From Sphaerolaimus hirsutus (lineage: Eukaryota; Nematoda; Chromadorea; Monhysterida; Sphaerolaimidae): a DNA stretch of 64,000 bases. Below the pieces are notes generated by a model that had not been told where the DNA came from, ran no database searches, and worked only from the letters and a program-made list of their open reading frames with translations. The stretch lies in assembly GCA_964036195.1 (NCBI GenBank), contig OZ038455.1, forward strand, positions 7,767,855 through 7,831,854. Direction: 5' to 3'. Positions 15,381 through 45,579 of this stretch are shown piece by piece. The translations under genes were made by a program, and so were the position numbers. Numbering within the stretch: the first letter of the stretch is position 1; each line of letters starts with the position of its first letter.

Positions 15381-15510
15381 ATCTTTCCCGAAAATTTCTG
15401 GCGTAATAATAACCCCCCCAAAAAGCCCCCCCCCCCTCGAAATACCCCCCTCAAAACTTCCACTCTGAAAAAATTAACCCCCTGGGGGTATTTCGGGGAA
15501 ATACGGTACA
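15381..15510. mobile_element. Fragment of the CCGTATTT family
   Basis: This shorter piece has CCCCCCTCGAAATACCCCCC and ends GGAAATACGGTA. It adjoins the preceding full copy. Confidence 0.55.
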
Positions 15511-16332: not shown

Positions 16333-16597
16333 TTAAAGGTGAAAATTGACTAAATGAGGCAAAGAAAAAAAAAGAAAAACGTCGAAAAAGACAAACTCCC
16401 ATCAGAGGGGTAAGTTTGACGTTTGGAGTTGAGAATAGGGAGGCAGGGTACATCAGACCAGTCTTTTAATGACCGCTGGTGACTCGGGCCGGTTTTTTAA
16501 AGCTTCTGGACATATTTGGCCTGTCTCTAAGGTGTAAAATCGCCGCTCAAAGAGAGCTGGAGCAGTGCCAAGAAAATGTCCGCCATCTTTTGGCAAG
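16333..16597 (+). promoter_or_regulatory. 5' UTR of the non-LTR element with two possible splice donors
   Basis: There are two possible donors before ORF1: CTAAG|GTGTAAAA (GT at 16532) and GGCAAG|GTATTC (GT at 16598). Both could join the acceptor TTTATATAG at 17285. The first removes ATG 16576. The second leaves ATG 16576 as a short out-of-frame upstream ORF. Only unspliced RNA uses ATG 16576 to open the long frame. Confidence 0.45.
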
Positions 16598-18149
16598 GTA
16601 TTCTTCAACTATGCACGTACGCAATTATTACCATAATTTTGGCACATACGTACGAGTGTGGGACATACCTTGGAAGTTACGTTGTATCTGAAAATGATAC
16701 ATCGAATTTGTCACGTAATGTGAAAAAGTCGTATGCTACTATATATAACAGCGACTTAAACACTGTAACATCTGTATTACATGAAAATCAGTGTTTGCGA
16801 AGTACCGCGATGCGGTATTTTAACTACAAGCAGAGTTTTTCGATTGAACTTCCGTATTGCTTTCCGATTTCTGACGTATACGTTTCGGATCGTCGTAAAA
16901 AAGGAAATAAACGTCGAGTGCTCTGGTTGAAGGAGGAGGAAATTTCGGCGGTTCTACACGTTCGAACTGGTGAGTCCGAGGGGAACCGTCGGTGGGGATG
17001 TTTTCAACATCTGCGAAAAGTCATTTCACACGCCTCGGGTCAAATATTTAAGTACCCAGAAGGAAATGTGAACGGACTTAAAACAATGGGTTGTAATTAT
17101 GAATACACCTGTATTTTATCGGATTTAAGAATACTATCTTGGGAAACGAAATTTTCGGAATCAAAAATTTTCGAGTATTCATGTGATTTGTTTATTTCAC
17201 GAAATCGAAGATATCGGAAATTTCTCTTTTTAAATATTAAGCGAGATTGCCATAATCTGACATATTACGGTTTCTATTTATATAGGGATACATGGCGCTC
17301 GTTGAAGAGGTGGAAAACGAAAACGATGGTTTCGTTGACACCTCTCAAGATTCCCAAGACCCAGAGGGCACAAAATCGCAGCCGCTACGTCGTTCGGGGC
17401 GTAAATCAGGCAGTTTTCGTGTTCTGGCGAGTAAAGGGTGCACGGCGCAGGGCGGAGGACCGAAAAAACGCACCGCGACAACGGTTAGTGGGGCCGTGGG
17501 ATAATTATCTGGCATATGGTGAGGGGCATTATATTGTCAGTTCCATTTGTCAGATAATGTTGGGTTCCTGTTTTACTGTTGAGATTGGTTGCATTAGAGA
17601 ATACTATATTGCGATGCCTCTAACTCGCAACAGTGCACGCCTCACTAGATTGTGTACTTTTGAAAACACAGACTTCTTAGCTCAAAGAACATTGACGTTG
17701 AAATTGAAATCAACGTTTATGGGTCAACAAAACGCTTTAGAGATAATGTTTGTAACTCGCATGTGGTTTATCTTAATGCACCGTTGCGAAGTTATTATTG
17801 AATCGCGCAGGAATGTGGGTAGGTTGACAAATTATAAAATCGCAACCCCGCAGGCTCTGTCGCACAAGACGAAGCGCGAAAAAAGCTTCATTGCAAACAG
17901 GTCCGACATGGACACTGAGTCGGAGGGCTTGACTACGTCACCGGCGATGACGGCGGCGGACACGGTGGCGATGAAAACCAAGTTTGGGACCATGACGCCG
18001 CGCGAGCGCGTCTCCTTCGTCAACACTCTGGTCGAGTCGCGCTCTGGGAAATACGCTGAGCTCGCGGAGCAGATGCGCTTGATGGATGAACTGCTGGCCA
18101 AAGGTCTGATCGATGTAAGTGGCATGGGGGAAAGGTTTTTTGCTCTTTC
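16576..18149 (+). CDS. Unspliced long frame, 5' part (ATG 16576 to BEL insertion)
   Basis: ATG 16576, with A at -3, opens a frame that is free of stops up to the BEL target site. It resumes in the same phase at 30727. It covers predicted intron 1, exon 1 read in a different frame from the spliced one, intron 2, and exon 2 in the shared frame. The N-terminus has a hydrophobic segment with YAIITIILAH that could act as a signal or anchor. The rest is rich in Cys, Tyr and Arg and matches no domain I recognise. About 525 codons open in such AT-rich DNA is not expected by chance. Either it is translated, or the intron model is wrong here. Confidence 0.55.
17286..17483 (+). CDS. Non-LTR ORF1 exon 1 (ATG 17292)
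   Basis: The acceptor is TTTCTATTTATATAG and the donor ACG|GTTAGT. ATG 17292 gives 64 codons at phase 0, starting MALVEEVENENDGFVDTSQD. An acidic, Ser-rich start is followed by a basic part with GPKKRTATT. The exon is GC-rich beside AT-rich flanks. In the unspliced RNA the same bases are also open in a second frame. Confidence 0.55.
17854..18114 (+). CDS. Non-LTR ORF1 exon 2
   Basis: The acceptor is ACCCCGCAG and the donor a consensus GAT|GTAAGT, phase 0 in and out, 87 codons. The protein is polar, with ERVSFVNTLVESRSGKYAEL and a likely helix QMRLMDELLAKGLID. GC content jumps sharply at the exon border. Here the spliced frame and the long unspliced frame are the same. Confidence 0.55.
18115..18149 (+). 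other. Start of ORF1 intron 3, target of the BEL insertion
   Basis: GTAAGT at 18115 opens the intron, which resumes at 30727 and ends at acceptor CCCCTGCAG (30967). Without the BEL element the intron would be 276 bases, divisible by three, and without a stop in the long frame. Confidence 0.5.
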
Positions 18150-19448
18150 TGTGATGAAGCCACCGAAGTCAGCGTCTTCTACCACCGAATCCGGCTGCTT
18201 CAAGACCGTAGTGAGAAACGGCCTTTAGAGTGGTTGATTTCCCGTTGTAGCCGAACGTCCACTTGTCGACAGTTAAGTTGAGTTTATTTCGTAGTCGTGT
18301 GTTGAAAAGGGGATTCGAATTGTTTCAGGTACTTTATTTCGATCAGATACAGCGTGTTACAAAAGCGCAAAGTCTAGCGAGCTTCCTAATCGAAGTTTCT
18401 ATCACTAGCTTATTTTCGTTCAGAAGCTTGGGGTCCGCAGACTGAAGTAAAAACTTCCAAAGTAGCTAAGACACGGAAATCATGTATAGAAAAACAGTTA
18501 CAGTAATTTCCTAATACAAATGCACAAATAAACCACTAATATAGCAATAAGACACATTTGATAGAAACAGTTGGCTTATTCTATGCGTGCATACATTCAA
18601 ATACTTATGGTAAAGAAATACCAGGTACAAATTGGGTTAATAGAAAACTATTAATCTTGAGAGGCGCGAAGTCGGCAAACTCGGCCGATTTACTAATTTG
18701 TTCCAATTTGTCAGAAAACATTGACGCACATTGGAACTAATAAAATAGGGTTTGAAACTGTAAATAGTAGTGTAAATGTTCCTAATGACATAAATAGAGC
18801 AGGGTATATTCGATATAATAATAATTACTTCCTGGAAACGTATATTTCATAATTGGTAAATTGGGACTTATTCGAGGTAAACGGGTATATTAATTGAGCA
18901 GGGTCTATAATATATTCAGCTTGAGCAAAGTATTATAATTATTAAGTAAATATAAATATAAGTTGTGGACAGGGTTAAACAATTATGCCTACGCGAAGGG
19001 CTTCGTAAAACACGTACAGTAAATGCTAGTTGCATACAGGGCACTATTTCTCCATTAGGACGCTGGCCTAGATAATTACGCAGCACGTAAATATTTACAA
19101 GATTTGACTTTTGTAAACTGCAAGTAAACTATGCAAATGTATGTATAATCATGATCAGAAAATTACGGCGAGTTGAATGAGCCTAATTTTATATTAATAC
19201 ACCTAATAATAACATATTTGACCTTTTAACCTAAACATTCCACATAAACCTATCAATAACTTATAGAACACTTTCCTAATCGAATATTCTCCATGGGTAA
19301 ATAATATAGTGCAGGAAATACAATTTGCGTGGTAAATTAATATAGTGTATAAATTGTAAATTAGTGCAAATAAGTAAATGTGCAAATATGAGCCTAATTA
19401 TCAATTCTCTGTATTTCTTTATCCATCCATTTTGCCACGGTCAGCACA
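18150..19448 (-). repeat. BEL/Pao 3' LTR, copy 1
   Basis: It is 1299 bp. On the coding strand it starts TGTGCTGACC and ends TTCATCACA, so TGTG and CACA are inverted ends. It is AT-rich. I count four differences from the 5' LTR by eye. No clean polypurine tract is visible just before it; the preceding bases read CTTCCGCCCGGAG. Confidence 0.95.
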
Positions 19449-19490
19449 CTCCGGGCGGAAGAGTTGCTGCACCCCGTTGTTGCAGCAACG

Positions 19491-22400
19491 TCACATGCTG
19501 GTGGTGGTGGGCGCCAAAGTGATGAGTGGCGTTTCCACAGTCGCCTCGGTGGTGAACGTGGTCGTGCGCGAAGTCGTGGGTGTGCGTGAAGTTGCAGGTC
19601 CGGTTGTTGGTGATGCCAACGCCGACCTAGCCTGATGATGAAGCAGGTAGTTGCCCGTGTCGCTTCCTGCGCGTTCGCGTGAGGTGAATTTGCGGATATC
19701 GGGCATGTGAACACTGTCTCTGTTCCTGGCTCTGACTTGTCCTTCATCAGCTGAACTTTCATCTGGTTGAACGTATGCTGATAGTGACTTTGCCATTCTG
19801 TCCTCTGTTTCTGCTCTCCTGGAAAATCTGACGGACTGTGTTGAGTTGGATCTGGCTCTCCTCTTGATTGCTGGTCTCAACTCTGTCTTGCGCACCTTTC
19901 TTTGTGGATAATTGGTCTCTTTCTGAGTTGATTTCTTGATAGTATATCTGATGGCTCTGAAGCATAGCCATATGCATTTGAATGGACACACTATGCATTT
20001 CCATATGCATGTGTATACACATGGTGGAATCACTGGTTTTCCTGTGGCAATTCTCCAATTGTACCACAGGTACCCTGCAGCTACGATTCCAGCTATCAGG
20101 ATTGTGATTCCCAGCAGCATTGCGATTGTGTTGATGATCACTTGAAAGGGTCCCTTCAGCATTCCTCCCATAAAGTTGGTGTACCCTTTTGACACTCCAG
20201 AGATATAGTGACCATATGCTTTGCCGATTCCTGCTGCTGTCTGTCCAATTCCAGCTCCAATGCCTTCTATTGAATTTCTGATCACTCTGGGATCCAATGA
20301 CATATCTGCCGTGTAATCAATCAACTGGTTCTGCACATGCTCCAAATTCTGTAGTCTCTGAATCTGGCCTCTGACATCCATGAAATTGGTCGCTCTGTTG
20401 ACAATGTTGGTGAACAGGTGAGGCGCATCAAACGTGAAGGCCTGCCATTGTCCTTTCCATGTCATTTCAATCGGTGTCTCTGTGACGTGCACCATTCCAT
20501 GTGCGGACTTCCATTGTCCATGTTCATTTCTGTACAGGTGCGGTGTGGTGTGGCTGCAGTCCTCTTCTGGTGATTTCTCCACCAAGTCTCTGCTGCCTGG
20601 GCTCTTGAACCACAAGGGCCCATCTTTGTCCAATCTCATTGGTGTGTACTTGTAGCATGTTTCTCCCACTTTTCCTGTCTGATAAATTATGTATGGCTGC
20701 ACTTCCTTGCATTCCCAAAACATAATTGCTTCTCCAGCCCATTCTGCATGAACATCCTGTCTTCCCAGCATGGCTCGAATCCCCAGTGTTGGATCGATGC
20801 GGAAAAGCTGAGTCAACATGTCCAGCTGGTTCTTGCGAAGTTGACATAGCTGATGCCATACAATCGCAAATTGTGCCTGAGTCATCTCTCTGACTACATG
20901 TTGCAGGAACTGAAACTTGGAGTTTCTGTCGTCCAATCTGGCATACAATGTTCCACTGATTGTCGACTCTCTTGCCTCCACTATCTTTCCTGGCATTGCC
21001 CATTCCACAGGCACATCTTCTCTTCTGTCAAACTGGATGAATACACCTCCTTGATCGGTGTAGTATGTGTCTCCCGGAACACATTCTGAACCAATTGGCC
21101 TCTTTGTCTTGTTGCTGTGGGAGTATGCTGCTTGCAATTTTGACACAATAATTGTCTGGCCAGATATCTCTGATTTGAATCTGCCAATTCTCTCATATGC
21201 ACATTGATGCTTGAAGTTCTCTGTATCCCACACTGTGATTCCATAATTGTGGTCTCTGCAATGTCCCATCATGGCTCTGCATTGGCTGAAATCTTGCAAG
21301 TCGCTGATTACAGTTTTTCCATCGAGTGAAGCCACGGTTCCTTCTTCCATGTAGAAGTTACTGACGACATTTTCTTTGTCATGACAACACCATGAATATT
21401 CCACATTCAAGGTTTGATTGGTTGTCCACACTCTGGGCTCCATTTCCACCAAAGGTGTTCCTCTAAACATCTTGTGAATTCTTGCATAGTTACAGGCTAC
21501 CACGCCAACTTGCTGGTATTTCTCAAAATTGCCTGTAATGCCTTTCGCTCCCCAGAAACTGGTGTGTGTAATAATCTCTTTGATTCTGATGTAGCATCTG
21601 TATGCTTTCTCTTTCTGTGGAATCTGTCTCTGTGCGTAAAGTGTAACTTTCATTGCCTTGACAAAATTCCTTGGTGGGATATGGCACTGCACTTCTTCAG
21701 GAACTGTAAGCGCATGTACATGTCTTCCACTGGTGCAAATCTGATACTTCTGGCTTTGTGAGCTGATCACTTGTTCCACAGGATGGTCCTTGATTGCATC
21801 CTTGAATCTCTCATAAGTCTGCATTTCTCTGACAGATTTTTGTGGCCATTCTGAAGGCAAAGGCGGCAATCCATGATGTGCTGCCAATGATGGTGGCCTT
21901 ACTGTCGAGGTTTCTAGAACGTATGTTCTGGAAAATACTTCGCTGTAAGCCTTGCCGGCTTCTCTCAGCGTTGCTGACTCTGACATGCCTGTCAGCATCA
22001 ACACCATACACAGCATTCCAATCACCAGACTGCTGGTGGTTGCCGTGGTTTTCCCTGTTGCACTCCTCAGGACTCTATCCGATGCTGAGTTCCTCTGAGC
22101 AGGGTTTGGTACAGAGTCTCTGTTCGAGCTCTGATTTCTGACATGTTTCTGGACAATTGCTGGGTCCAGTAAATCCACTTTGACTGTCACTGCTGTCTCT
22201 GGGATATCCATTGTCTTTGAATTGATTTCCAGTGGATACAATTGATTGAGTGGTCTGCTGACCACATTTCTGTTGGCAGTTCTGACTTTTGCTGAGCGAA
22301 TCTGTCCATCTTTGCTGGGATCTAACTGCTCGATGCGACCCATCCTCCATGCACCTCTGGGCATGTTCTCTTCATAAATCAGCACAACTTCATTCACTTT

Positions 22401-25400
22401 GGGTTCTTGAGTCGCTGTCAATCTGCCATGTTTGTGCGTCACCTGAGTTCTTTCCCTCAAGCTTGGGATATACTCTTGATGCCACAAGTCCCAGAACTTA
22501 TCCAAAGTTTGCTGGGTTGTCTCCCAATATTTCTGCAGTTTCGCTGCGTTATCCATTCTGGGCACGAATTCTCCATCTTTGTCTGCGTCAAACTGTGGTG
22601 CTCCAATCTGACCTTCCCCTGTCAGGAAGTCTTTTGGCGTCAGCACTCTGAGGCTCTTTACATCACCATAGATGTAAGAGATTGGCCTGCTGTTGATCAC
22701 TGCTTCAACTTCTGGCAGAAGTGTCAACAATTCTTGCAGGGTTAACATTCTGTGCCCCACAGCTGCTTTGAAATGTTTCTTGGTGATGCCCACCATTCTC
22801 TCATAGACACCTCCCTGCCATGGTGCCATAGGAGTAGTCATGTTCCACTGGATTTGTTGCTGTGAGCAGTAAGTCTGTACCGCTCCACTTTTGACCATTT
22901 CTGACCATTCCTTTCCAGTATTGATGGCCTTGTCAGTGCTTGTGCTGAGCACTTTCTCTGTCAATTTGAATTGCGTCGCATTGTCTGAAATAACTGCTTC
23001 AGGCTTTCCACGCCTGGCGATGAATCTCCTGATTGCGTTCAGGAATTCTTGTGCTGTCATGTCCAGCACACTTTCCAGATGAACTGCACGTGTCACCATG
23101 CATGTGAACAAACAGATCCACATTTTCCTGTGATCTTTGTCCACTTTGTACCAAACTGGTCCCAAATAATCCAAGCCCGTGTATTGGAACGGTCTGGCTC
23201 TCTGAACTCTGGTTTCTGGTAAATCTGGCATTGGTGGAAGCTGGTACGGCTTCGCTCCCAATTTCTTACAGGTTGGGCAGGTTCTGGTCACATTGTAGAT
23301 CACCCGTCTGCCCTGTGTAATCCAGTACTTTTGTCTGATCGCTGCCAATGTGTGTTGCACTCCTGCGTGCATCAACTTCTCATGCTGGTCTCTGACGATC
23401 AGCTGAGTCACTGTAGCCGTTGCTGGCAACAGTATGAGTGGCACTGTGATCTCCTGTGGGTCTGTATGCTCCATTCTGCCATGGCACTTCAGGATTCCAT
23501 CCTGATGCATTTGCACATTGAGCCATTTGATCAACTGCTGGTCTGCAGCTGTTTTCTTGCTATTCTGGCTGCCTCTGCTGTGGCCTGTTGCCAGAATCTC
23601 TGCCACTCTTTTGTAATGATTTTGTTGCGTCACTTTGATCCAATATTTCAACGCAATCTCTCTCTCTTCAATGCTGATAATTCCCTGTGGTTTTATTGTA
23701 CCACAGATACTTTTCATGATTTCTGACAATCCATTCTGACTGTCATTTTTGCTGCGCTTTTTGTGCATCTGTCGCACAAATCTCATCACGTATACTGTTG
23801 CATCCAGTAATTTCGTCAGTGATGAGAATCTCTGAATCTCAATTCCCAATGGGTTGCTTTGCTTGCTTTCGTCAACTTGCACATTGCTGGTATCTGGGTC
23901 ACTGACCACTTGCTGTGTGGCGCCCAGGTAAATTGGACTGGCTTTTGGGAACTTGAGCTCTTCTCTCTTGATTTCTGCCATTACTTCTGGCGTAACTGGC
24001 TCCACTTTCGGCTCTGGCCACTCTCCAGTCATCAGCCATTCTGGCCCTTTCCACCACAGGTTACTGCCTTCCAACTCTGACATATTCATGCCTCTTGTAG
24101 CCATGTCAGCTGGGTTCTCCAGTCCTGCGATGTGTCTGATATGCATGTTTTCTGTCTCACTCTGAATTTTCCTGATTTCATCCAATCTGTTCTTGACAAA
24201 ACATGCCAGTGGCTTCGCAGTTATCAGCCACTTCAGACAACAAGTTGAATCTGACCATACGACTGTTTGACCGAATTTGACGTCCTTGAGCTCCTTGTGA
24301 ATAAACTTTGACATTCTGCTGCCGATCAACATTGCTAACAATTCCAGCCGTGGAATTGTCACTTCTGGTTTCTTTGGAGCGAGTCTCAATCTGGAGTACA
24401 GCAGGCTTGACGTGCCGCTGTCATTTTCTGTTTTCTGGCATATGTATGCCGCTGCGCTGTATGCCATTGCTGAGGCATCGACGGAAATGTGCAGTTGTGC
24501 ATCTGCACCACTCTGATAATTCAAATTTCGGTTGAACTTGATCTGTCCAACTTTGAGCAACTCTGTCTCTAATTGCTGCCAAATTGCTGTCTGTTCCTCA
24601 GACAGGGGTGTGTCCCATTCTTTGGCACTTGGTCCTGAATGCCATAACGTTTGCAAAAATCTCTTTGCTGGCAGTAGGACAGGACTAACGAGTCCCATTG
24701 GATCAAAACATCCCGCAGTCACCTTTGCAACTGTCCTTTTCGTGGGAAGTTTGATTTTCTGGTCAGTTTCTGATAACTGTGATTGCTGAACTGTCTTTGG
24801 CGTTTTCAGCCACATCTGGTCGCTCTCTGTGTCCCATTTCATTCCTAGGACTGTTGTGACAATTTCCTTGGCCACATCTGACTCTGCCAATTGCCAAGTA
24901 AAACTCTTATTGTTGCTGTTCCATTCTCTCAGATTCATCTGTGCCTCTGTGAACAGCACTTTGGATTCCTGGTACAATTCGATTGCTTTCTGCTCTGTAT
25001 CCACACTGAGGATCAAATTATCCACATACAGATTTTCATCGATCAATTTTGCATTCTCTGTGCCAGCTTGATTCAGGTGGTATCTGACTGTCAGCGCTAG
25101 CAGCGCTGGGCTGCAGATTATGCCAAATGGCAATCTGGCAAATCTGTAAATCTGAATGTTGTCCTCCATAGATGGTTTCGTGGGATCCTTGTACCACAGA
25201 AATCTTGTCACGTCTCTGTCACTGTCTTGCAGACTGATCTGCAGAAATGCTTTCTCTATGTCTGCAACCAGGGCGATTCCATGCAACCGGAATCGCATCA
25301 GCATCCCTACCAGCTGTGGTAGTATCACTGGACCGCGGTACATGCACTCATTCAAGCTTGGCATGCCTGGCGGTTTTGCTGAGGCATCATATACCTCTCT

Positions 25401-28193: not shown

Positions 28194-29405
28194 TTTTGCT
28201 GATGAATTTTTCCTTCACTGTTTCTCTTTATAGTGCGTCGCCTGTGACGCTTGTGACGCTTCTCTGCGTCTTTCTGTGCAGTGCTCTGTGCACCACGGAT
28301 TTGTTGTGCCACACACAATACCAATGCAGTCCTACAGGCCCCTGACGTGTTCTCACGCGTTGACCTTTACTGCACTGGCACCAGGTGTGTTCCTAAAGCC
28401 CCTGACGTGATTGTTTACACGCGTTGACTTCAACACACCGGTCAAATCCACCTGGACAATAAACAATTTATTTGCCCAGCAGTGTGCGCCCAAGGAGGGT
28501 CCGTACACACTCTTTCTGAGCGCTCTGGCGCTCTTTCTGGCACGCCTGTGTGCCTTGTGACCACGCCGGCCACTTGCTTTCCTGAGCGGCTCCTGTGCCG
28601 CTGTGCGCAGTGCTGCGCTTGCCGTGTCGCCCGTGACACGTTTCTGTGCACTCTGGTGCACTTTCTGATTCTGGGCAGTGTTTCTTTACACTGCTCTGCA
28701 ATTGCGTCTGTGCAATGCAGTTTTCTGGCACTTTTGTGCTGTCTGATCTGATGGTACCGAGCAGGCACAGCGTGTATATTTGATGGGAGCTCCGCAAAGC
28801 CCCTACACGCCACCAAGTATCCTAATACTTGGTTTTCAAATCCACTCTCTGTCAGCTACAGCCCTCTGTCAGCTACAGCCCTTTGTACACTGATACCCCT
28901 ACTTTTGCACTTCCGAGGTATGAGTCCACTCTTACCCAGTGGAGCGAGGGACCTCCGCGAATGCCCAAAAAACAGCCCTTTGACTAGCGTGGCTCTGTGG
29001 CGATCCTGTCTCCGTCAGGTCACCCTCCCTTGGCATAGGAAGGACGTGCGAGCGGTCACTGGCGTCCGGATGTCCAGGAGCGTCCAGCAAAAGTTTGACC
29101 ACCGTCCGACAATGACTCCTTGTCAAATGCCGGTGCCGCCCAGCGTCTAGCACCTTGCCAGAACACTGGTGAAAGCTGCCTGAAATCCTGACAGGCTTGT
29201 CAGAACTCCAGTGTCCTCCGCGCGTGAGCGTAGAACCGCTCCCAGGATGTAGACAGGAGTGCCGTGACTTTGGCACAATGCTGTCTGCAAATCAACAGCC
29301 AACGCTCAGCCAAGGCCAATTGATGTTCAGCAGGACTTTTGAAGTTCTGCCAACTGCCGCACAATGTCCGTTCCGGCTTGGTGATAGCACAATGTCATGC
29401 AATCA
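28194..29405 (-). other. BEL/Pao 5' leader
   Basis: This is about 1.2 kb of GC-rich untranslated leader between the primer site and the gag ATG. It has many short GTGCGCTCTGGCGCTC-like repeats. The equivalent sequence continues at the right window end in copy 2. Confidence 0.7.
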
Positions 29406-29422
29406 CCCTGCTCGCTGCGCCA
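29406..29422 (-). promoter_or_regulatory. Primer binding site
   Basis: On the coding strand TGGCGCAGCGAGCAGGG follows the 5' LTR with no spacer. TGG would pair with a tRNA CCA end. I did not identify the tRNA. Confidence 0.7.
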
Positions 29423-30721
29423 TGTGATGAAGCCACCGAAGTCAGCGTCTTCTACCACCGAATCCGGCTGCTTCAAGACCGTAGTGAGAAACGGCCTTTA
29501 GAGTGGTTGATTTCCCGTTGTAGCCGAACGTCCACTTGTCGACAGTCAAGTTGAGTTTATTTCGTAGTCGTGTGTTGAAAAGGGGATTCGAATTGTTTCA
29601 GGTACTTTATTTCGATCAGATACAGCGTGTTACAAAAGCGCAAAGTCTAGCGAGCTTCCTAATCGAAGTTTCTATCGCTAGCTTATTTTCGTTCAGAAGC
29701 TTGGGGTCCGCAGACTGAAGTAAAAACTTCCAAAGTAGCTAAGACACGGAAATCATGTATAGAAAAACAGTTACAGTAATTTCCTAATACAAATGCACAA
29801 ATAAACCACTAATATAGCAATAAGACACATTTGATAGAAACAGTTGGCTTATTCTATGCGTGCATACATTCAAATACTTATGGTAAAGAAATACCAGGTA
29901 CAAATTGGGTTAATAGAAAACTATTAATCTTGAGAGGCGCGAAGTCGGCAAACTCGGCCGATTTACTAATTTGTTCCAATTTGTCAGAAAACATTGACGC
30001 ACATTGGAACTAATAAAATAGGGTTTGAAACTGTAAATAGTAGTGTAAATGTTCCTAATGACATAAATAGAGCAGGGTATATTCGATATAATAATAATTA
30101 CTTCCTGGAAACGTATATTTCATAATTGGTAAATTGGGACTTATTCGAGGTAAATGGGTATATTAATTGAGCAGGGTCTATAATATATTCAGCTTGAGCA
30201 AAGTATTATAATTATTAAGTAAATATAAATATAAGTTGTGGACAGGGTTAAACAATTATGCCTACGCGAAGGGCTTCGTAAAACACGTACAGTAAATGCT
30301 AGTTGCATACAGGGCACTATTTCTCCATTAGGACGCTGGCCTAGATAATTACGCAGCACGTAAATATTTACAAGATTTGACTTTTGTAAACTGCAAGTAA
30401 ACTATGCAAATGTATGTATAATCATGATCAGAAAATTACGGCGAGTTGAATGAGCCTAATTTTATATTAATACACCTAATAATAACATATTTGACCTTTT
30501 ATCCTAAACATTCCACATAAACCTATCAATAACTTATAGAACACTTTCCTAATCGAATATTCTCCATGGGTAAATAATATAGTGCAGGAAATACAATTTG
30601 CGTGGTAAATTAATATAGTGTATAAATTGTAAATTAGTGCAAATAAGTAAATGTGCAAATATGAGCCTAATTATCAATTCTCTGTATTTCTTTATCCATC
30701 CATTTTGCCACGGTCAGCACA
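29423..30721 (-). repeat. BEL/Pao 5' LTR, copy 1
   Basis: It is 1299 bp, the same length as the other LTR and almost identical, with single-base differences for example at 29545 and near 30500. On the coding strand it would hold the promoter. I cannot place a TATA box with confidence. Confidence 0.95.
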
Positions 30722-30726
30722 CTTTC

Positions 30727-33700
30727 TTTGGTGCTGTTTTTACATGACCATTTAGATATGCATCCAAACGTAAGTGATGTACACTTCGGATGTATCTATG
30801 AGAGAACCTTTTCAGCATTAGTTTTACCAAAGAGTGCTAAACAAGATTTAACCACGTCGGTGGTACAGGCTGCGAAGGAGAGTTTTGAATTGTGCAAAAA
30901 AGCTACTAACGTTTCCTACTTGAATTTATTAGCTATGCATAATGTAAACGATATAACTCCCCTGCAGGCTGAATCCCTGGGTGTGTTCACGTGCCAATCC
31001 AAGGAGATCTTTGCTAAATTACAGCATGCCATTTATTTAAGTGGGCAGATCGACTTGGGGCAGGCCATGATCGTCGAAACGATGCAGCTCGAATCTCAGC
31101 GCATGCAAACCCAATTATGGGACGAGTTAAAAGTGCAGCGTGAGATGGTCGAGCGGGTGCAACTCAGCTTGCAGGCCAAGGGAGTTGATCTAACGGCCGA
31201 TGTGAACAACATTTTCATGTTGAGTAGCACCGAGCCGCAGGATCCTATGTCCTTTTTTCATCGGACTGACTTCCTGGCTTTCGGCATACACTGGAAGTGC
31301 ATTATGTGCGCGCTGCTCTGGCACAAAGGCGAAACACTGGGTGTGCCGGCACTCAAAGAAGAAGCCATACGGTGCAACATATCGTATATTGAATATGACC
31401 CGATGGCCCCCAGTGTTATGGCCAAGTGCTGGGCGGAGTGGCGCAACGAGCAGTGGAAATTGTATTATGACAATACCGACGACAATCACGCCGTCACATG
31501 GTATGATAAAACAATTTCCGAAGATTCTGCTCGTATGCGCAGTACACCCGCCTACCGCTCCCTCGTGGCAGTTTTGCAAATGTGCGTCAAGGGGAATAAA
31601 GCCTTCGCCATGTATTTAAAACTCACGGGGTCGCGGCAGATCCACAATGCGGCGCGCGCGCATCGCTTTCTCGGCAACGGCTATAATAAAACTTCGTGGG
31701 ATGGTGTGACGAAATCGAGCGACGGCCGAAACATGAATATGTACGGCCTGGCCCTCGAGGAAGTGCGCGCCTCCCCGGAGCTCGCCTCGCTGGTATTTAC
31801 GCCAGAGGAGGAGCAGGCCTATAATGCCGAGTTTGTGGTGTTTGAAGCGGACCAGATGTGGACCGTGGGCACAAGAATTGAGGCGCACAAAGAGAGGGCG
31901 AAAGCCATGCACCAAGGTAGGCTGGGTGGTTTGCACAGTTCCCGTGGGAATAATGCAAAATGGGGGAAAACGATACGCAATATTCAAAAATATATTGAAT
32001 TCGGTATCAAAGAATCTGAGATAGAAGATGGGGAAATTGTAGAGTTTTCGGTAAAGGAGAGCGTTATTAAACGCTATACGATATGTCCTGAACCACTCCG
32101 CCATTCCCAAATGTCACTATCCATGATATCTCAACCCTCACCTTCCATTACAGTCAACCAGTGGAACCAGACGATCAACAAGCGCAACAAGGGGAAGTCG
32201 TCCTCCAGTTCCGCCGGCGCGGCGGCTGCCGGGGTGGAGCCCGCTGAAGGTGCGGGTGCGGCCGCAGATGATGGCGCTGTGGACATGGAGAACGAGGTGA
32301 TTCAGCGTTTTCATCTTGACTACGAGGACAACCCTTTACGGTTGTGGGCGGGCAAGTTTGCGGAAAAGAGCGGCAATCTGACCCCTAAAACAGTAGACAT
32401 CCACTCGCCGGCGGCCATCAGTGCTGCCAAAATGGCGGTCACTACAGACGCCATGGGCGGGACAGTCAACTGGGAGGATAAAGTTTTTGTCTCCGACTGC
32501 GGATGGTTTACCATTAGGGATCTTTTGCGCTCTTTTGACCACGATCCATGCGAATGGCAGCCATACCTGCAACGGGATGTGAAACGTCCGGTGACCTGGC
32601 AATCGCCTGTATGGTCTTTAACGCCGCTGCCCACGAACTTCTTTTCAGATAAGTTCTCGCGTGATGACAAGTATGGCCAGGACCATACGGGTCCGCGTGA
32701 TGGGTGGTTAGGCGTGTCGGTCGATTTCATACCGTTGCGCGTGTGGCTGGTGGGCGACAGCACTGCTAAATCGGTGAGAGTGCCGCTCCTGGACTGTTTA
32801 CGTAAAAGTGTCGTCCACACGGAGGCGGCGCACTTGCCAAATACGGTGTCTGTGTCGACTATCGCCACTTGCTACACTGGGTGTAGAATGGCAACTATGA
32901 AAGGTGCGTGTGCCCTGGCAGATTTTAGCGAGGTGAAAATTGTGGTCTGGAAATCAATTCTGGACTACATTGACACCGCATTTTGCTTAGCTAAATCGGG
33001 GGAATCGGAAGGCATCTGCCAATTCGTGCGGAATGTTTACGTGGCGCTGTTACAACTGCGTTTCATTCTGTTCGACCAGGGCTTGCCGCACATTCCGATT
33101 GTGTGTTGCGTAACCCAGCCATTTTTTCCGGCACAAGAGGGTGTCGCACACAACGCGTACGCAGAGGCTGTGATTTGGAGGCTGGGTAGAGACATTGAAT
33201 CAGCATTGTCACGGGTCTGCGCCAATATACCTGGCGTAACCATCACCCAGCCTCTGAATTACATGCTGCGCAACAAAAAATCCGCAATAATTCCGCACCT
33301 AGTGGGTGTGGACACAATGCGCCTATATGAAGGGATTGTAGGCACGGACGGCATCCATCTGAGCAAGTACGGGGAGACGTTTTTGGGGCGCCTATTGGCC
33401 CGGGATTGCGTACTGGCGCTGGAAGGTTACAGCGCTCCAACGCTATCCAGGTGGGCGAAATATAGTATAGCGCTCATTAACACTAGTGGTAGATGTTACA
33501 GGTCGAACATATGTTACTGTGACTGGCTCAACACTTCCAACTTTACCTCAGGTGGCGGCAGATGTGCGGGTCGACCGATCCCGACCTTTGCAAAGAGGGG
33601 CAAAGGCTGCTGGCGGACCTGTTCAACAGGGCGAGGGAGGTCTGTCATTTTAATGACATGTATCGGTTGCACAATATCTGGTGATATGTCCACCCGAGAT

Positions 33701-33991
33701 TCCAAAATCTTACAGGAAGTTCAAAAAAGCGTGGACGCGGTGCTCGTGGACTCCCGTACGGGCGCGGAGCTGGCGGTGCGGCGCAAATTCGTGGCGCCGG
33801 CGGCAGCCGAAATAGCTCGGTTGGAAGTGGATCCGAGCGCCGAGGAAGCCTGCAGCAGAATAACCGGTCCAGGTGAGATTGTTGCGGTGGGATTGACTGT
33901 GCTTTACACATTTAGTATTATATTTTATATGCTGGTTTCACAATCCATACCGCAAACACTTCAAAATGTACTTATGCAATCACAGCTCTGA
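30727..33991 (+). CDS. Unspliced long frame, middle part (ends at TGA 33989)
   Basis: The frame continues in phase from 18149 after removing the BEL element and one target copy. It covers intron 3 remainder, exon 3, intron 4, exon 4, intron 5, the exon 5 and 6 regions read in another frame, and intron 6. It ends at TGA 33989-33991. The same frame is open again from 33992 into ORF2. This is the main evidence that unspliced RNA may be translated. Confidence 0.55.
30968..31916 (+). CDS. Non-LTR ORF1 exon 3
   Basis: The acceptor is CTCCCCTGCAG at phase 0 and the donor ACCAAG|GTAGGC at phase 1. It adds about 316 codons. The start is helical, with LWDELKVQREMVERVQLSLQ, a possible coiled coil as in many ORF1 proteins. 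Further on is a Trp-rich segment with WAEWRNEQWKLYYDN. I do not recognise a named domain. GC content is high compared with both flanking introns. Confidence 0.6.
31917..32153 (+). other. Stop-free ORF1 intron 4
   Basis: It is 237 bases, starts GTAGGC and ends TTCCATTACAG. Its length is a multiple of three with no stop in the flanking frame, so retention adds 79 residues, including ESEIEDGEIVEFSVKES. It is clearly more AT-rich than its neighbours. It may be read as intron or as coding sequence. Confidence 0.5.
32154..33450 (+). CDS. Non-LTR ORF1 exon 4: SGNH hydrolase domain
   Basis: The exon enters at phase 1 and leaves at phase 2 at TCCAG|GTGGGC. After a Ser/Ala-rich linker and a region with VSDCGWFTIRDLLRSF comes an SGNH (GDSL-like) esterase fold. 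Block I is VWLVGDSTAKS (near 32740-32765), with the nucleophile Ser in GDS. Block V is GTDGIHLSKYGETFLG (near 33340-33385), with the D-x-x-H pair. In spliced numbering the domain spans about 665-890. Esterase domains of this type occur in ORF1 of CR1-like elements, where the substrate is unclear. It would act in the element's RNA-protein particle. Confidence 0.7.
33451..33551 (+). other. ORF1 intron 5
   Basis: It is 101 bases from GTGGGC to CTTTACCTCAG. It is AT-rich, and not a multiple of three, so splicing changes frame for the following exon. The long frame remains open through it. Confidence 0.55.
33552..33872 (+). CDS. Non-LTR ORF1 exon 5, with one internal TGA
   Basis: Spliced to exon 4 it reads RWRQMCGSTDPDLCKEGQRL and then a helical stretch LLADLFNRAREVCHFNDMYR. 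At 33682-33684 there is TGA (spliced codon 944). The same frame then gives an RG-rich part, SSKKRGRGARGLPYGRGAGG, up to AACCGGTCCAG|GTGAGA. TGA may be a CGA decayed at CpG, since the context is GG(T/C)GA. If so, this copy makes a truncated ORF1 protein when spliced. In the unspliced frame the same bases are also open, with a different sequence. Confidence 0.5.
33873..33985 (+). other. ORF1 intron 6
   Basis: It is 113 bases, starts GTGAGA and ends TGCAATCACAG. It is AT-rich, and open in the long frame, where it would encode a hydrophobic stretch with VLYTFSIIFYMLV. Confidence 0.55.
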
Positions 33992-34127
33992 CCGGGGTGC
34001 CGCGGCAGCCAATGCCGGTCAAAATCGCGGAGCGCACGGCGGCCGTGGTCGCGGCGGCCGAAGTGGGGGCCCACCAGGAGGCCCGCCGGGCGGCAGCAGC
34101 AAAGGCTGGTACTTCTACCGCGAATAA
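33986..34127 (+). CDS. Non-LTR ORF1 exon 6: RGG tail and stop
   Basis: Joined in phase with exon 5 it gives an RGG-box tail with HGGRGRGGRSGGPPGG and ends KGWYFYRE at TAA 34125-34127. The six coding exons sum to 3162 bases, exactly 1054 codons including stop. RGG tails bind RNA, which suits an ORF1 protein. Reading instead from exon 5 in the long frame would give an Ala-rich sequence, which is less protein-like. Confidence 0.55.
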
Positions 34128-37100
34128 AAAAGGGTCAAGTAGTGCGGCCGTTAGGTGATTTGTGGCTTAGGGCGGGTAGGCAGATGCACCTCTGTTTCAG
34201 AAGGTGCGAGCTGCTTCACCTATTTTGTTCATGCTGCGGCTTGGTGATTGTTTTTTGTTTTATTTCCTCCAAATTTAACTATGGCGTGACCTCACAGGGG
34301 GAGCTGGCAAAAAGTCATGCACCAGTAGTGAGGAAGGGCACTACGATGATAATATATAATATATTAATAAATGCCTACCTATGTGAGGTTTCGCCATACA
34401 GTGCTGTACGTCTGTGTTTGAGGTATCTGGCACTGTATGTTTGGTCGATGCGACTTCAATGGTGTCTACTTAGAAGATCCGAACTGAAGGGGGAGATGGC
34501 CTTAATATATAGTTTAAAACACTTTGCCAGATCTCTCAGACATTTACGGTTCTTTTTAGTCTACTTTCGGTTTGGTAGACTATATTGCTTTATATTTTTA
34601 GGACACCGGTTACGTATGTTTTGCCATACACTTATCTCGATTCGAGATCTCCTGCCTTTAAACGTGTTTTATGAAGTGCGTTATACTTCGCTTGTGGCCG
34701 CTGTAGGCCGACATTTGGCTTTTTCTGAACACAAGTATTACATAAAGAGGCCAGTATACAGTGAGGGCATGGAAGTGGTCGGAGATAAGAAGAAGTTAGG
34801 TGAAACAGGCGTTTTGCAACGCAACTATGTGTCACATGCTGATACTCTACAAACCGATATGACACAAAATGGCAACCCTATATCGGGTTCTCCATCAAAT
34901 GTTCGGCCCACTAAGGAATCAAATATAAGGTCTGGTACTGAATTTACAATATTTTACCAAAATGTAAACTCAATCAGGCATAAGCATGCACAGCTCCAAA
35001 ATATTGGGTCAAAGGGGTATGATTGTATTGCCTTGTGTGAGACGAATGCAGTACATAAGGTGCATTTGCCTGATATTCCTGGGTATACACTAAACGCCAT
35101 CATGAAGCCGGTTAATGGTAATGGTGGAATAGCTGTATACACAAAATGTACTATTGAGTGTTCCGTCTTGGGAGGGGACTACTGGGAAAATTGTGAAAAT
35201 GTCTTATGGCTCACTCTACGATGCCACAAATCATCCACTTTCATAATGCTTGCTATAGTTTATCTATTTGATGCTGGGAAAGTAGCGCGTAATAGAGACT
35301 ACATGCAGCAAAATGAAATTATCCTGTCCAATCTGTCAAAACAAGTATCAGAGAACACAGTGAATGGTAACCCATCCCTATTAATAGGTGATTTTAACGG
35401 TCATATAGGGAATTATCACCCAGGACTTGATCGGAATAGTCACGTGATAAATGACACAGGTAGGCTAGTGAACTCATTTATCAGAGTAAACGACTTATAT
35501 GTCGGCACCTCTGTCACTGACATATGGTGGTCCTACGAAGCAGGTATAACACGTTCACTGTTAGATCTAGCTCTGTTTGATACCACCGCTGAATGGACTA
35601 GTGAAGTTTCACACTTCAGTCCGACCAGCGATATGTCAATCGGTTCAGACCATTGCTCTCTACACTTATCGGTAGTTGCTAATAATATACAACTCGTAGC
35701 ACCCGCTGATGATAAGTATAAACATCAATGGGTTGTGAAGGGTGAAGATGTTATTGAACCGTTCTCAAAATGGCTAGAGGAATCTTTAACAACACTTGTC
35801 GATGATGAATGTACATATGAAAACATTCTGGAGCATCTTCAATGTGTGGCCTCTAGGCGGTACCCTATAAAGGTAATGAACTGTCAGACAACGTGTGTGG
35901 CATTACGCATACGTCGTCTGAAAGCTGAGATACAAAAACTACGGCGAAAACTACACTTGAATGTAATTATGTACTCAGAGTACAAAGTACTTGTCACGGC
36001 TCTACGTAACAAAATACGTATTTGCGAGCATGACTATGAGTTGGACATCAAGCGCAAACGACTTGATGTTGAGTTGCAATCAAGTAGCACTAAAACAGAT
36101 CTCTATAGTATGGCCCGCCGGTATAAAGAGGGTGGCATACTGTATCCAATGCTAAGATCAGAGTCTGGCTTGGCAGATACAAAAGATAAGATATCGCAAG
36201 TGCTAGAGGGGTTCTGGAATAAAGTTCAAATGGCAAATCCAATGAGCTTGCTTCCAGACTCCTGCAAAACAAGTCTGTCAGGCATTATATCCGGTACACT
36301 TAGGTGTAGCCTCGAGGAGAGGATAACCTCAACAGAAATAAAACTAGCCATTAAGACGTTAAAACTGGGTAAATTGCCGGGGACCACTGGTGTGTATCAT
36401 GAAATGCTACGCGGCAGTGGTAGTCAATTGATTAGGGTTCTTACACTGCTGTTTAACATGTGGTTTGATGGAAATCCAATCCCACAAACAGCAAAAACAT
36501 GTAAGTTATCTCTTCTGCATAAAAAAGGGTCTAAATCTTGTGTCGATAATTATCGATCAATAGGTTTACAATGCAACATTCTAAAACTATACTGTTCCGT
36601 ACTGAATAATAGGCTGTTATCAGCCTTTGAAAGTGTGGATGGTTTTGGAAGTATGCAGGGTGGCTTTCGAAAAAAGCGTCGCACAACAGATAACCATGTT
36701 ATTATACAGGGCTGTCTGAGCGGTAAACAGAGTGTTTCCGCATGTTTTGTAGATGCTGTTAAGGCCTTCGATAGGGTTCCGCGTGATAAATTGTGGCGTA
36801 AGCTGCTAGATTACGGGTACCCTTCGAAATTTGTCAGCTCTATATCTAGTACGTACGACGATCTGCGCTGTGTAATACAGTATGGTTCGACATACAGTGA
36901 CGAGTTCACCTATAGGCTAGGTGTACGGCAGGGGTGCTGTCTTTCACCAAGTCTGTATGTCTTATACTTAGCGGATCTACGTACTGATCTTGAGAGCTTG
37001 AAGATAGGAGCGCAACTAGGGGGAACCAAAGTGCCAGCAGTGTTCTTTGTTGATGATATCGCCCTATTAGCTAATACATCACATGATCTCCAGGCCATAA

Positions 37101-38269
37101 TGAATAAATTTACAGAATGGTCCTGGAGGTGGGGGGTTGCAATACACCCAGATAAAAGTAAAATATTGCACTTTCGATGTAAATCCAACCCAACACGTCT
37201 TTGGACACTGGGTAAGGATATAAACGGGGACTTTCAGTCCATTTCGGAAGTTGATGAGATAAAATATTTAGGCTTAACGCTTACATCATCCAACAATATG
37301 TTCAGTAAGCAACGTCAACTACTTCTCCAGCGAGCACAAACTGCTGCTATTATGGTTGGAGAATTAGCTTCAATGTCACTGTGTCCGTTTTGGGCAGTCA
37401 ATAGACTGTGGACACTTTATGCTATGACAAAAGTTTTCTACGGAGTGGAAATCTTTGGCCTTCCAAAGCAAACCTTAGCGAAGCTAGTTGGCATACAAAT
37501 GTCTGTATACAGAACGGTATGCCGTGCCCCGGTGCATCTATCAAGCAGATGTATTGCTATAGATGGTGATGTGACAACAATGAAAGCTTGGTATACACAG
37601 ATCATTGTAGGTCACTGTCGGTACTTAGAAAGCAATCACGTTAGCTTAACGACTAAACAGGCGTTTAACCTCTGGGGTAGGACTAAATTAAACCTACCAC
37701 GACGCCAAAGCCCTTCGGGGAGGTCGGCTGCGTTGTTAAGTGATGCTAGTATCGATCCATCATTGGGTTTAAAGAGCATTAAACAGATCGCTAAGCAAAA
37801 TGCATGGGGGGATAGCTCACTAGGCAAAGTGTATCTGTCACGTACACGGTTGGAGCGCTACTGGGAAACCAACCCCGAACCACTAAATACATATAAAATT
37901 TACTCAGATGAAATGCCATGGGTATTTGCACGACATGGATTGTTTCAAAAGACTATACAATTTACGCTGAGTAATACAGGGAAAAAGTGGTCAAGGTGTA
38001 AGTTGTGCGTAAAGTACGGTCATGATTTCTGGCCTACATTATCACACTACTTGTACGGTTGTCAGGATGTGGCCATAATATATTGGCGCAATAAACTCCT
38101 TAGGGAGCTAAACACTGACTGCTGTGAGGAAAAGTGCTGTCATATGTTGAGTATGGGGGAACCTATTGAACGGCTAGCGCACCTTGTAAAATGCAGCTGT
38201 AAACAGTTGAGAAGGTTGATATCCTCGCATATCACAGCACTAGATGCCTATCTATACGGCCTTGAATAA
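33992..38269 (+). CDS. Non-LTR ORF2: AP endonuclease and reverse transcriptase
   Basis: The frame is open from just after TGA 33989 to the stop at 38267-38269. From codon GTG 34142 it has 1375 residues; the first ATG is about 34182. Numbering from 34142, the first 266 residues have no recognised domain. The AP-type endonuclease spans about 267-510 (FYQNVNSIR, ALCETNA, LIGDFNGHIG, SDHCSLHL). RT spans about 720-1050 (CFVDAVKAFDRVPRDKLW, RLGVRQGCCLSP, FVDD near 968-971 in place of the usual YxDD, WGVAIHPDKSK). A C-terminal C-x2-C-H-C finger starts near 1286 (CKLCVKYGHDFW). The catalytic aspartates are present. The copy looks intact. It shares the reading frame with the unspliced ORF1 region, from which only one TGA separates it. 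Confidence 0.9.
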   Translation, partial: PGCRGSQCRSKSRSARRPWSRRPKWGPTRRPAGRQQQRLVLLPRIKKGQVVRPLGDLWLRAGRQMHLCFRRCELLHLFCSCCGLVIVFCFISSKFNYGVTSQGELAKSHAPVVRKGTTMIIYNILINAYLCEVSPYSAVRLCLRYLALYVWSMRLQWCLLRRSELKGEMALIYSLKHFARSLRHLRFFLVYFRFGRLYCFIFLGHRLRMFCHTLISIRDLLPLNVFYEVRYTSLVAAVGRHLAFSEHKYYIKRPVYSEGMEVVGDKKKLGETGVLQRNYVSHADTLQTDMTQNGNPISGSPSNVRPTKESNIRSGTEFTIFYQNVNSIRHKHAQLQNIGSKGYDCIALCETNAVHKVHLPDIPGYTLNAIMKPVNGNGGIAVYTKCTIECSVLGGDYWENCENVLWLTLRCHKSSTFIMLAIVYLFDAGKVARNRDYMQQNEIILSNLSKQVSENTVNGNPSLLIGDFNGHIGNYHPGLDRNSHVINDTGRLVNSFIRVNDLYVGTSVTDIWWSYEAGITRSLLDLALFDTTAEWTSEVSHFSPTSDMSIGSDHCSLHLSVVANNIQLVAPADDKYKHQWVVKGEDVIEPFSKWLEESLTTLVDDECTYENILEHLQCVASRRYPIKVMNCQTTCVALRIRRLKAEIQKLRRKLHLNVIMYSEYKVLVTALRNKIRICEHDYELDIKRKRLDVELQSSSTKTDLYSMARRYKEGGILYPMLRSESGLADTKDKISQVLEGFWNKVQMANPMSLLPDSCKTSLSGIISGTLRCSLEERITSTEIKLAIKTLKLGKLPGTTGVYHEMLRGSGSQLIRVLTLLFNMWFDGNPIPQTAKTCKLSLLHKKGSKSCVDNYRSIGLQCNILKLYCSVLNNRLLSAFESVDGFGSMQGGFRKKRRTTDNHVIIQGCLSGKQSVSACFVDAVKAFDRVPRDKLWRKLLDYGYPSKFVSSISSTYDDLRCVIQYGSTYSDEFTYRLGVRQGCCLSPSLYVLYLADLRTDLESLKIGAQLGGTKVPAVFFVDDIALLANTSHDLQAIMNKFTEWSWRWGVAIHPDKSKILHFRCKSNPTRLWTLGKDINGDFQSISEVDEIKYLGLTLTSSNNMFSKQRQLLLQRAQTAAIMVGELASMSLCPFWAVNRLWTLYAMTKVFYGVEIFGLPKQTLAKLVGIQMSVYRTVCRAPVHLSSRCIAIDGDVTTMKAWYTQIIVGHCRYLESNHVSLTTKQAFNLWGRTKLNLPRRQSPSGRSAALLSDASIDPSLGLKSIKQIAKQNAWGDSSLGKVYLSRTRLERYWETNPEPLNTYKIYSDEMPWVFARHGLFQKTIQFTLSNTGKKWSRCKLCVKYGHDFWPTLSHYLYGCQDVAIIYWRNKLLRELNTDCCEEKCCHMLSMGEPIERLAHLVKCSCKQLRRLISSHITALDAYLYGLE

Positions 38270-38984
38270 TACTGTATTGTGTAGATGTTTTATCATGCTC
38301 TACTGCAATAGAAATATTACAACTAAGATGCACATATTTACAGTATGTTAGTATACCCGTCATCTTCCTTTTTATGGATAATCGTTCAGAGTCAAGGGGT
38401 GTTATACAAGTGCAACGACACATATAAAGTGTCACGATCATTGCATCATGACATATCATGGGATTTTAACTTCCACATGTAAACATTGAGCAATGTCGTG
38501 TGTATTGAGTATTGAGTATGCACAAGAATATACCCTAGTCTCATATAAAACTACGAGTATTTTAGGTAAACCCAGGGCCCTGGTACCATACGTGCTTTAG
38601 TTTTACTATTATAATTATGCATATTACAATGTATCTCAAGCTCGCGACTGGTACTATATTAAAGTTGTTTTTGTACCTCAGCTAAATCTACCTACTGTAT
38701 CGCAATTAAAGATTCTGTTTACTTTGTTCATTTTGTTCACTTTATTGATTGGCCATACCCGTGAAGCATTTAGGTCCTGTTTTATATGCCGTTATTATTT
38801 CCTGTTCCATGTAATGTGTATGAAGTACTTGCGTATATTTACTGTTGGGTAACAGGTAAAACCTATTAATAATTTCAACTGTCAACACTGTCATCCTATA
38901 ATTTCGCAACTGTTTTTCTATGTTATTACAATGCCCGTGACTTGTAGAGCCAGACGTGGTATGTGTGTTAAATAATAAAAAAAT
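38270..38984 (+). other. 3' UTR of the non-LTR element
   Basis: AT-rich, no ORF. It ends in an A-rich tail TTAAATAATAAAAAAATAATA overlapping the proposed target duplication at 38985. Confidence 0.6.
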
Positions 38985-39159
38985 AATAGTGATTCAGCGC
39001 CAATTGGGACCCCCTTTGGAAGCCCATGCCACGGGTCTACATGTGTAGCGGGTTTGCATGTCTAGGAAGCCTACATCTATCACCATTAAGCAGAAGTCTT
39101 GGCACCAAAGTCGATTGTACACATGTTCACACATTCGCCCCCCCCCCCCCTCTCCCCAG

Positions 39160-44574: not shown

Positions 44575-44665
44575 CCGTATTACCTCGAAATACACCCATT
44601 CGAGGGGGGGGGTATTCGAGGGGGGTCTATTATTTCGCCAGAAATTTTTGGAAATTCCCCATACT
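44575..44665. repeat. Short CCGTATTACCTCGAAATAC fragment
   Basis: This is the truncated left end of a CCGTATTT-family element. Confidence 0.55.
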
Positions 44666-45569: not shown

Positions 45570-45579
45570 GTATTTTCCG

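Follow-up and report, generated by a model that had tools for sequence, protein, structure and literature searches.

Stop-free predicted introns in the reverse transcriptase frame of a LINE-type retrotransposon from the nematode Sphaerolaimus hirsutus

The window analysed here is a stretch of 64,000 nucleotides (nt) from Sphaerolaimus hirsutus (contig OZ038455.1, positions 7,767,855 to 7,831,854, assembly GCA_964036195.1), and at positions ~16365-38985 it holds an element of the long interspersed nuclear element (LINE) type. One reading frame of this element is open through its predicted introns and on into its reverse transcriptase (RT). Judged from comparison of its copies, the element probably uses a splice-dependent switch, in which spliced RNA would give the protein of the first open reading frame (ORF1p), and unspliced RNA would give a polyprotein of ~3000 amino acids (aa) containing the RT and would also be the template.

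The ORF2 piece matched PF00078 (reverse transcriptase) at E 2e-30 and, before the RT, PF03372 (APE endonuclease) at E 7.4e-6 (26.3 bits, cut-off 24.5); no other Pfam family, GIY-YIG included, was found at E 0.1. The best relatives of the RT in the PDB were R2 and, next, LINE-1 ORF2p. The sole long terminal repeat (LTR) pair within the element belongs to a BEL insert, and the 3' end is A-rich. By its RT, its endonuclease and the absence of LTRs of its own, the element is a non-LTR (LINE) retrotransposon of the APE type. Its ends were set by comparison of copies, and a check for target-site duplications returned shared A runs alone at the ends used. The features are listed below in window positions, with exons numbered E0-E7, introns I0-I5 and the linker as U.

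16365-16409, + strand: E0, 5' end of the element and 45-nt leader exon; the copies' similarity starts there, and in 10 others GT comes next
16410-17285, + strand: I0, predicted intron containing the polyprotein ATG; donor GT 10/10, acceptor AG 11/11
16576-16578, + strand: ATG of the unspliced 3038-codon frame; AAGAAAATG in 10/10 copies examined
17286-17483, + strand: E1, predicted first ORF1 coding exon, with ATG 17292 (MALVEEV...); frame +2 relative to the open frame
17484-17853, + strand: I1, predicted intron; GTTAGT 11/11, AG 11/11
17854-18114, + strand: E2, predicted exon in the open frame; low dN/dS in that frame
18115-30967, + strand: I2, predicted intron, 276 nt without the BEL insert; donor GT 11/11, acceptor AG 12/12
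18150-30721, - strand: BEL/Pao LTR element within I2, not part of the LINE; LTRs 18150-19448 and 29423-30721
30968-31916, + strand: E3, predicted open-frame exon with weak NADAR similarity; dN/dS 0.09-0.16 where computable
31917-32153, + strand: I3, GT...AG-ended segment conserved as protein in the open frame; splice ends plus low dN/dS
32154-33450, + strand: E4, predicted open-frame exon with GDS...DGIHL motifs; dN/dS 0.07-0.13
33451-33551, + strand: I4, predicted intron; GT 15/17, AG 16/16
33552-33639, + strand: E5, predicted exon constrained in both non-open frames; dN/dS, 16 copies
33640-33715, + strand: I4b, predicted intron; GT 16/16, AG 16/16
33716-33872, + strand: E6, predicted exon, RGG-rich in frame +2; dN/dS, 16 copies
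33873-33985, + strand: I5, predicted intron; GT 16/16, AG 14/21 by local matches
33986-34127, + strand: E7, predicted last ORF1 exon with RGG tail and TAA 34125-34127; tail recognisable in other families
33989-33991, + strand: TGA of the long frame, inside E7; absent at the same place in nine other copies
34128-34929, + strand: U, linker from the ORF1 stop to the endonuclease, open in the long frame; 0 stops against a shuffle mean of 15.5
34769-34771, + strand: possible own ATG of ORF2, 7 nt after an AG (region 34760-34771); suggestive only
34931-38269, + strand: ORF2 domains (APE endonuclease, RT) and stop 38267; Pfam, domain start placed by eye
38270-38985, + strand: 3' untranslated region and A-rich tail; similarity to the 98% copy stops about there, end approximate

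With the BEL insert set apart and the reading joined across it, the frame that opens at ATG 16576 and closes with stop 38267 is interrupted by a single TGA, at 33989. An earlier note on this DNA had described this frame from ATG 16576 to 38267-38269, and we confirmed it at 3038 codons, including the TGA, plus the stop. In the left arm (16531-18149) the open frame had 0 stops and the other two frames 33 and 31; the corresponding numbers in the right arm (30727-38269) were 2 (TGA 33989 and the terminal stop 38267), 188 and 151. In composition, the element is an alternation of GC-rich and AT-rich blocks.

That dozens of stops would be expected by chance in such sequence, as the earlier note supposed, was borne out. 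The window's introns (I3 included) and linker contained 0 stops in 891 codons, compared with 52.2 ± 6.6 in dinucleotide shuffles (minimum 32 in 2000 shuffles); the TGA at 33989 sits in E7 and is thus outside this count. By segment, I0 from 16576 had 0 open-frame stops (shuffle mean 13.8), as had I1, I2, I3, I4b and I5 in the window copy, while I4 had 0 in 15 copies.

Further copies were sought in the species' own 348-Mb assembly, in searches that scored the best candidates only, and match counts are lower bounds. There were at least 35 matches with the 3' part, at least 45 with the ORF1 piece P0002 and at least 85 with P0001, many of the last covering only residues after ~525, where the query enters the BEL LTR. 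Several of the 35 3'-part matches begin inside ORF2, for which breaks other than 5' truncation are possible. Copies with an uninterrupted long frame exist elsewhere in the genome. From stop to stop the frame was 3038 codons in the 98% copy, 3050 in the 67% copy and 3227 in the 53% copy; five further copies, two 40% copies among them, were open for 2718-2925 codons, and 9 of the 11 P0002 matches at ≤53% identity lay in an open frame of ≥2000 aa. Nine copies besides the window's, picked partly for reported long frames, were studied closely (c85 for its 5' part only); the loci in the dN/dS, stop-gain and splice-site surveys were the best-matching ones, broken copies included.

The copies group in five lineages. 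Alignments between families showed conserved blocks interleaved with blocks that barely align, and between lineages most introns were ~50% identical or less, the exceptions being I3 (0.74-0.77) and the I4 of the 40% pair (0.59). The introns and linker of seven other copies had 0 stops in 875, 887, 887, 1006, 585, 565 and 552 codons, a count that covers all introns except I0 and I1 of one 50% copy and I0 of the two 40% copies, in which the boundary of I2 was set one base too early (130 nt used, 129 correct). For the eight copies the shuffle means were 52, 52, 53, 51, 62, 37, 33 and 34, the lowest of 2000 shuffles giving 16-35, and the other two frames held 36-85 stops; the linker had 0 stops in all eight. 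Chance openness is ruled out by the shuffles, the other two frames and the independent families.

Intron lengths varied across copies (I1 316-370, I4 68-161 and I5 107-242 nt) with a constant length class modulo 3, which in copies picked for an open frame is a consequence of the frame being open. In the less selected set the length difference was a multiple of 3 for I1 in 11/11, I4 in 15/15, I4b in 16/16, I5 in 15/15, I0 in 9/10 and U in 15/18.

Stop gains were then compared among the three frames. Pairwise against the window, in comparisons that are not independent, the open frame had 7 stop gains versus 83.8 expected, and the others had 112 versus 115.5 and 131 versus 98.2. Within one clade, with each change counted once, the open frame had 5 versus 15.0 expected (Poisson P = 0.003), all five in single copies, and the other frames had 28 versus 21.3 and 24 versus 24.8. 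A consensus variant that judged each changed base alone gave 12 versus 24.7 in the open frame, and 43 versus 30.8 and 43 versus 36.5 in the others. Stop counts in distant copies (10/903 in I0, 21/1717 in U) were read in the window's frame and include alignment drift. On these counts, purging of stop gains is confined to the frame continuing into ORF2.

The ratio of nonsynonymous to synonymous substitution rates (dN/dS) was not computable where dS saturates. Pooled over I0, I1, I4, I4b and I5, the open-frame values were 0.66-1.79 and mostly near 1 (I0 0.91 and 1.11; I1 1.79 and 0.99); the linker gave 0.55 and 0.69. Nearly all pairs gave ≤0.16 for E2, E3, E4 and the start of the endonuclease (E2 0.08 and 0.13, with 0.20 in the most distant pair; endonuclease start, 34930-35300, 0.04 and 0.10). 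I3, which contains an EDGEIVE motif, gave 0.13-0.36 in eight pairs and, to judge by these values, behaves as coding despite its splice sites, as if optional. Because dN/dS is near 1 and stop gains are depleted, the introns appear to be selected against stops rather than for amino acids; by these measures they are near neutral for amino acids, and not for stops. The check that the earlier note had proposed, on stops and dN/dS in further copies, came out in favour of its argument that unspliced RNA is translated: intron stop gains appear purged in the open frame only, introns are stop-free across subfamilies in which they barely align, and dN/dS separates the introns from most exons and from I3.

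GT or AG was present in every copy (10/10 to 16/16) at ten of the twelve splice sites tested. At the I4 donor (D4) the two misses (L032, L033) show GT in direct alignment, the local match having run one base too far; the misses at the I5 acceptor (A5) are mostly ends of local matches, and two of them that were looked at again, L013 and L014, show AG when aligned. The ends of I3 were GT in 10/10 and AG in 8/10 as aligned, the other two being placed by hand. We take the block borders to be splice sites because GT and AG are conserved there across copies, and we infer from this that the element is spliced. Full-length copies begin with the 45-nt leader, after which comes GTAAGT or GTGAGT. This leader exon with its donor at 16410, the end of intron 1 at 17853, the intron 33640-33715 and the conservation of I3 as protein are details that the earlier note did not have. 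An intron 1 acceptor at 17900 was replaced by 17853 on the evidence of other copies, and a donor at 16598 by 16410, which is conserved and directly follows the leader. No tRNA or Rfam match was found within the window.

The exons outside the open frame showed a different pattern of constraint. For E1 (11 copies) the frame of ATG 17292 had a dN/dS of 0.09, against 3.15 for the open one; in E6 (16 copies) the ratio was 0.19 in frame +2, 1.47 in the open frame and 3.05 in +1; in E7 (15 close copies), 0.43 in +1, 0.65 in +2 and 3.82 in the open frame; and in E5 (16 copies), 3.54 in the open frame, 0.52 in +1 and 0.23 in +2. By these ratios E1, E6 and E7 are constrained in non-open frames that are joined only by splicing. 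Joined in this way, E1-E2-E5-E6-E7 form a 279-aa ORF that ends at 34127, with a basic stretch near its N-terminus and an RGG tail, and a similar tail is readable in the 67% and 50-53% families. An alternative E5-E7 frame running past 34127 was rejected, selection on E6 and E7 favouring the RGG frame. The earlier note had proposed a spliced RNA for an ORF1 protein ending at 34127; the end agrees with the selection on the RGG frame, and the RNA with exons that appear constrained in their spliced frames.

The start codons differ between the two predicted RNA forms. A stop lies 20-31 codons upstream of ATG 16576 in its frame in 10/10 copies. Splicing from the leader donor to 17286 drops this ATG, after which ATG 17292 comes first in 9/10 copies.

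Among the parts of the long frame, the ORF1 part in E3 was matched to NADAR by five of six relatives (best E 0.0016), and the window copy scored 15 bits against a cut-off of 35.1. The GDS...DGIHL motifs in E4 are invariant across six relatives and, without a database match, have what we take to be a resemblance to SGNH hydrolase. A profile search of the PDB found no relative at E 1, and nothing relevant by title to NADAR together with retrotransposons was among the literature matches listed. By eye, the N-terminus of the polyprotein (16576-16660) looks hydrophobic in several families despite drift, and could be a signal or an anchor.

Outside the genome, P0002 had no homologue at E 0.001 among 7994 scored candidates and the ORF2 piece matched 14 distant RT proteins at 22-28% identity, whole polyproteins lying outside the candidate length range in both searches. 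The giant ORF of copy L033 had no outside homologue at E 1e-5 among 4123 candidates, and no homologue was found in the viral contigs searched.

If the element works as a switch, the spliced RNA E0-E1-E2-E5-E6-E7 would start translation at ATG 17292 and make the 279-aa RGG-tailed ORF1 protein ending at 34127; a longer spliced form that includes E3-E4 is perhaps also made. Unspliced RNA would start at ATG 16576, inside the first intron, and would be read through all introns in one frame into a ~3000-aa polyprotein with NADAR-like, hydrolase-like, endonuclease and RT parts. The introns, with the exception of I3, would be selected for stop-freedom and frame and not for amino-acid content. That the fusion is read from upstream is suggested by the linker, which follows the ORF1 stop and otherwise need not be open. 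Since the RT would be encoded only by unspliced RNA, an RT preferring its own message would copy intron-bearing RNA, and the introns would survive retrotransposition. From these patterns we infer the translation of the long frame, the preference of the RT for its own message and any processing of the polyprotein. We also find it rather likely, with less assurance than for the switch itself, that this LINE lineage marks its genome RNA by intron retention: with the RT encoded only where every intron is kept, a cis-acting RT would copy unspliced RNA alone. In that case the introns would be held by selection that is largely blind to everything except stops and frame, and one transcript would yield much ORF1p and little RT.

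Several observations weigh against this proposal. The window copy is dead for the long product, owing to the BEL insert and TGA 33989, and some other copies have stops or frame-breaking indels. The eight copies in the stop count were partly chosen for long frames. The linker length was off by 1 in 3/18 copies, I0 broke its modulo-3 class in 1/10, and of the intron and linker indels in copies at ≥70% identity 3/7 were not multiples of 3, too few to judge. E5 is seemingly constrained in both non-open frames simultaneously, and E7 in four distant copies gave 1.03-1.12 in every frame, which is uninformative. At least one other ATG precedes ATG 16576 in 10/10 copies, and the AlphaFold model of E3-I3-E4 was unusable (pLDDT 36). 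On sequence grounds ORF2 might also start on its own, with a possible extra acceptor near 34769. Spliced retrocopies were not found: 0/34 genome matches cross the E2/E3 border and 0/93 matches to the joined E1-E2-E5-E6-E7 are spliced, one of the 93 extending 19 nt beyond a border, but in a copy that has its intron. This absence fits an RT acting on its own message, and would fit no splicing too, so the case for splicing rests on the exon frames and the splice sites.

The possible separate start of ORF2 is central to the best surviving alternative, in which the introns are open only so that unspliced RNA avoids nonsense-mediated decay, translation of ORF2 begins at a separate ATG near 34769, perhaps on an mRNA spliced in another way, and the fusion is without function. 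Each of eight other copies (8/8) has an ATG in frame, 186-210 nt ahead of the (F/Y)QNVN motif, and an AG 1-7 nt upstream of that ATG, and the linker is poorly conserved, both as this explanation would have it. It does not account for the open frame being the ORF2 frame in every family examined, nor for I3 being conserved as protein in that frame, and if spliced mRNA were the source of the RT, spliced copies would be expected, of which there were none among the matches found. We regard this explanation as improbable.

Slightly less probable again is that the element is not spliced at all and encodes one long polyprotein with hypervariable linkers, E1, E5, E6 and E7 carrying overlapping frames. 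The conservation of the long frame, the protein conservation of the GT/AG-ended I3 and the lack of a spliced genomic copy among the matches all suit such a polyprotein. It leaves unexplained why ten of twelve sites keep GT or AG in all copies when the interiors of most introns barely align between families, and the constrained frames of E1, E6 and E7 unite in one ORF only through splicing, E5-E7 having no ATG in the spliced ORF1 frame in the window. That the introns are young, derived from a coding polyprotein too recently to have decayed, is scarcely credible and already contradicted: the I3 segment does still align as protein between subfamilies, yet the other introns are so different that they must have turned over and are stop-free in five lineages, and the purging of stop gains inside one clade rules out a relic frame.

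The BEL insert has LTRs of 1299 nt that differ by 4 mismatches, and it is flanked by a 5-bp target duplication (CTTTC); its coding parts include Pao peptidase, RT and integrase. At 19491-28214 on the - strand, one 2907-aa frame holds these together with DUF1759 and a Monjiviricetes_fusion match, and on the strength of this viral fusion-glycoprotein match the insert is an env-bearing BEL/Pao element. At 53118-63500 (- strand) there is a further, interrupted copy of a similar BEL/Pao element, which likewise has a fusion-glycoprotein match of this kind. A direct repeat at 49143-51258 (offset 1277, exact over 518 nt) carries an ORF of 177 aa on the minus strand of each of its copies; that at 49448-49981 was scanned and had no Pfam match. 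Dispersed, G-run-rich arrays around the unit GTATTTCGAGG occur at 14944-15450, 41076-41525 and 44604-47173.

Elements copied through RNA should lose their introns, and a LINE that ties several of them to RT expression would be a direct answer to how introns survive. Such a LINE would be a non-LTR counterpart of the switch that sets the Gag/Gag-Pol ratio. Its introns would be a clean natural example of DNA on which selection acts chiefly to keep out stop codons, and could serve to test gene predictors and nonsense-mediated decay. The proposed switch predicts specific split reads, ribosome footprints and peptides.

Two-ORF APE LINEs such as L1, CR1 and others have an ORF2 with APE endonuclease and RT, an RNA-binding ORF1 and an A-rich 3' end. 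To our knowledge ORF1 is not spliced in these LINEs, ORF2 forms an ORF of its own, and no polyprotein is read through introns. The element described here has the APE endonuclease, RT and A-rich 3' end in common with them, but its predicted introns are open into ORF2. The earlier note knew of no element with such a switch. For non-LTR elements this stands within the open-access literature searched, where none was found among the matches listed, as judged by titles and the beginnings of abstracts; in principle it does not, as the LTR elements BARE1 and EVADE (EVD) have a similar switch. As far as that literature goes, the principle is new only for non-LTR elements.

Intron-bearing Penelope-like elements are said to keep their introns through retrotransposition, and an unspliced sense template was not excluded by the authors (PMC3846280). 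The retention of introns in a retroelement is the likeness to the present case. Those elements have a GIY-YIG endonuclease, pLTRs and self-priming or antisense models, and the consulted part of that paper mentions no open unspliced frame (PMC3846280).

In BARE1, a Copia LTR element of barley, the unspliced RNA keeps one Gag-Pol frame and replicates, and removal of a short U-rich intron of 104 nt changes the frame, leaving Gag as the sole product, according to the sections of the report consulted (PMC3735527). The likeness lies in an unspliced frame that is open through the intron into RT, in other copies of the present element, the window copy being broken. BARE1 is an LTR element with one intron and separate promoters for genomic and translated RNA (PMC3735527), whereas the present element is a LINE whose predicted introns number about seven and whose two RNA forms would each use their own start codon. 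In EVD, a Ty1/Copia element of Arabidopsis, unspliced full-length RNA gives GAG-POL and a spliced short RNA is dedicated to GAG, as the consulted part of its description has it (PMC8892269). A long product from unspliced RNA and a short one from spliced RNA would be shared with the element described here, but EVD is an LTR element whose splicing is coupled to early polyadenylation (PMC8892269). The present element has an APE endonuclease in place of an LTR and gag-pol organization, and the LTRs within its span are those of the BEL insert. By analogy, it would work like the Copia switch without being a Copia element.

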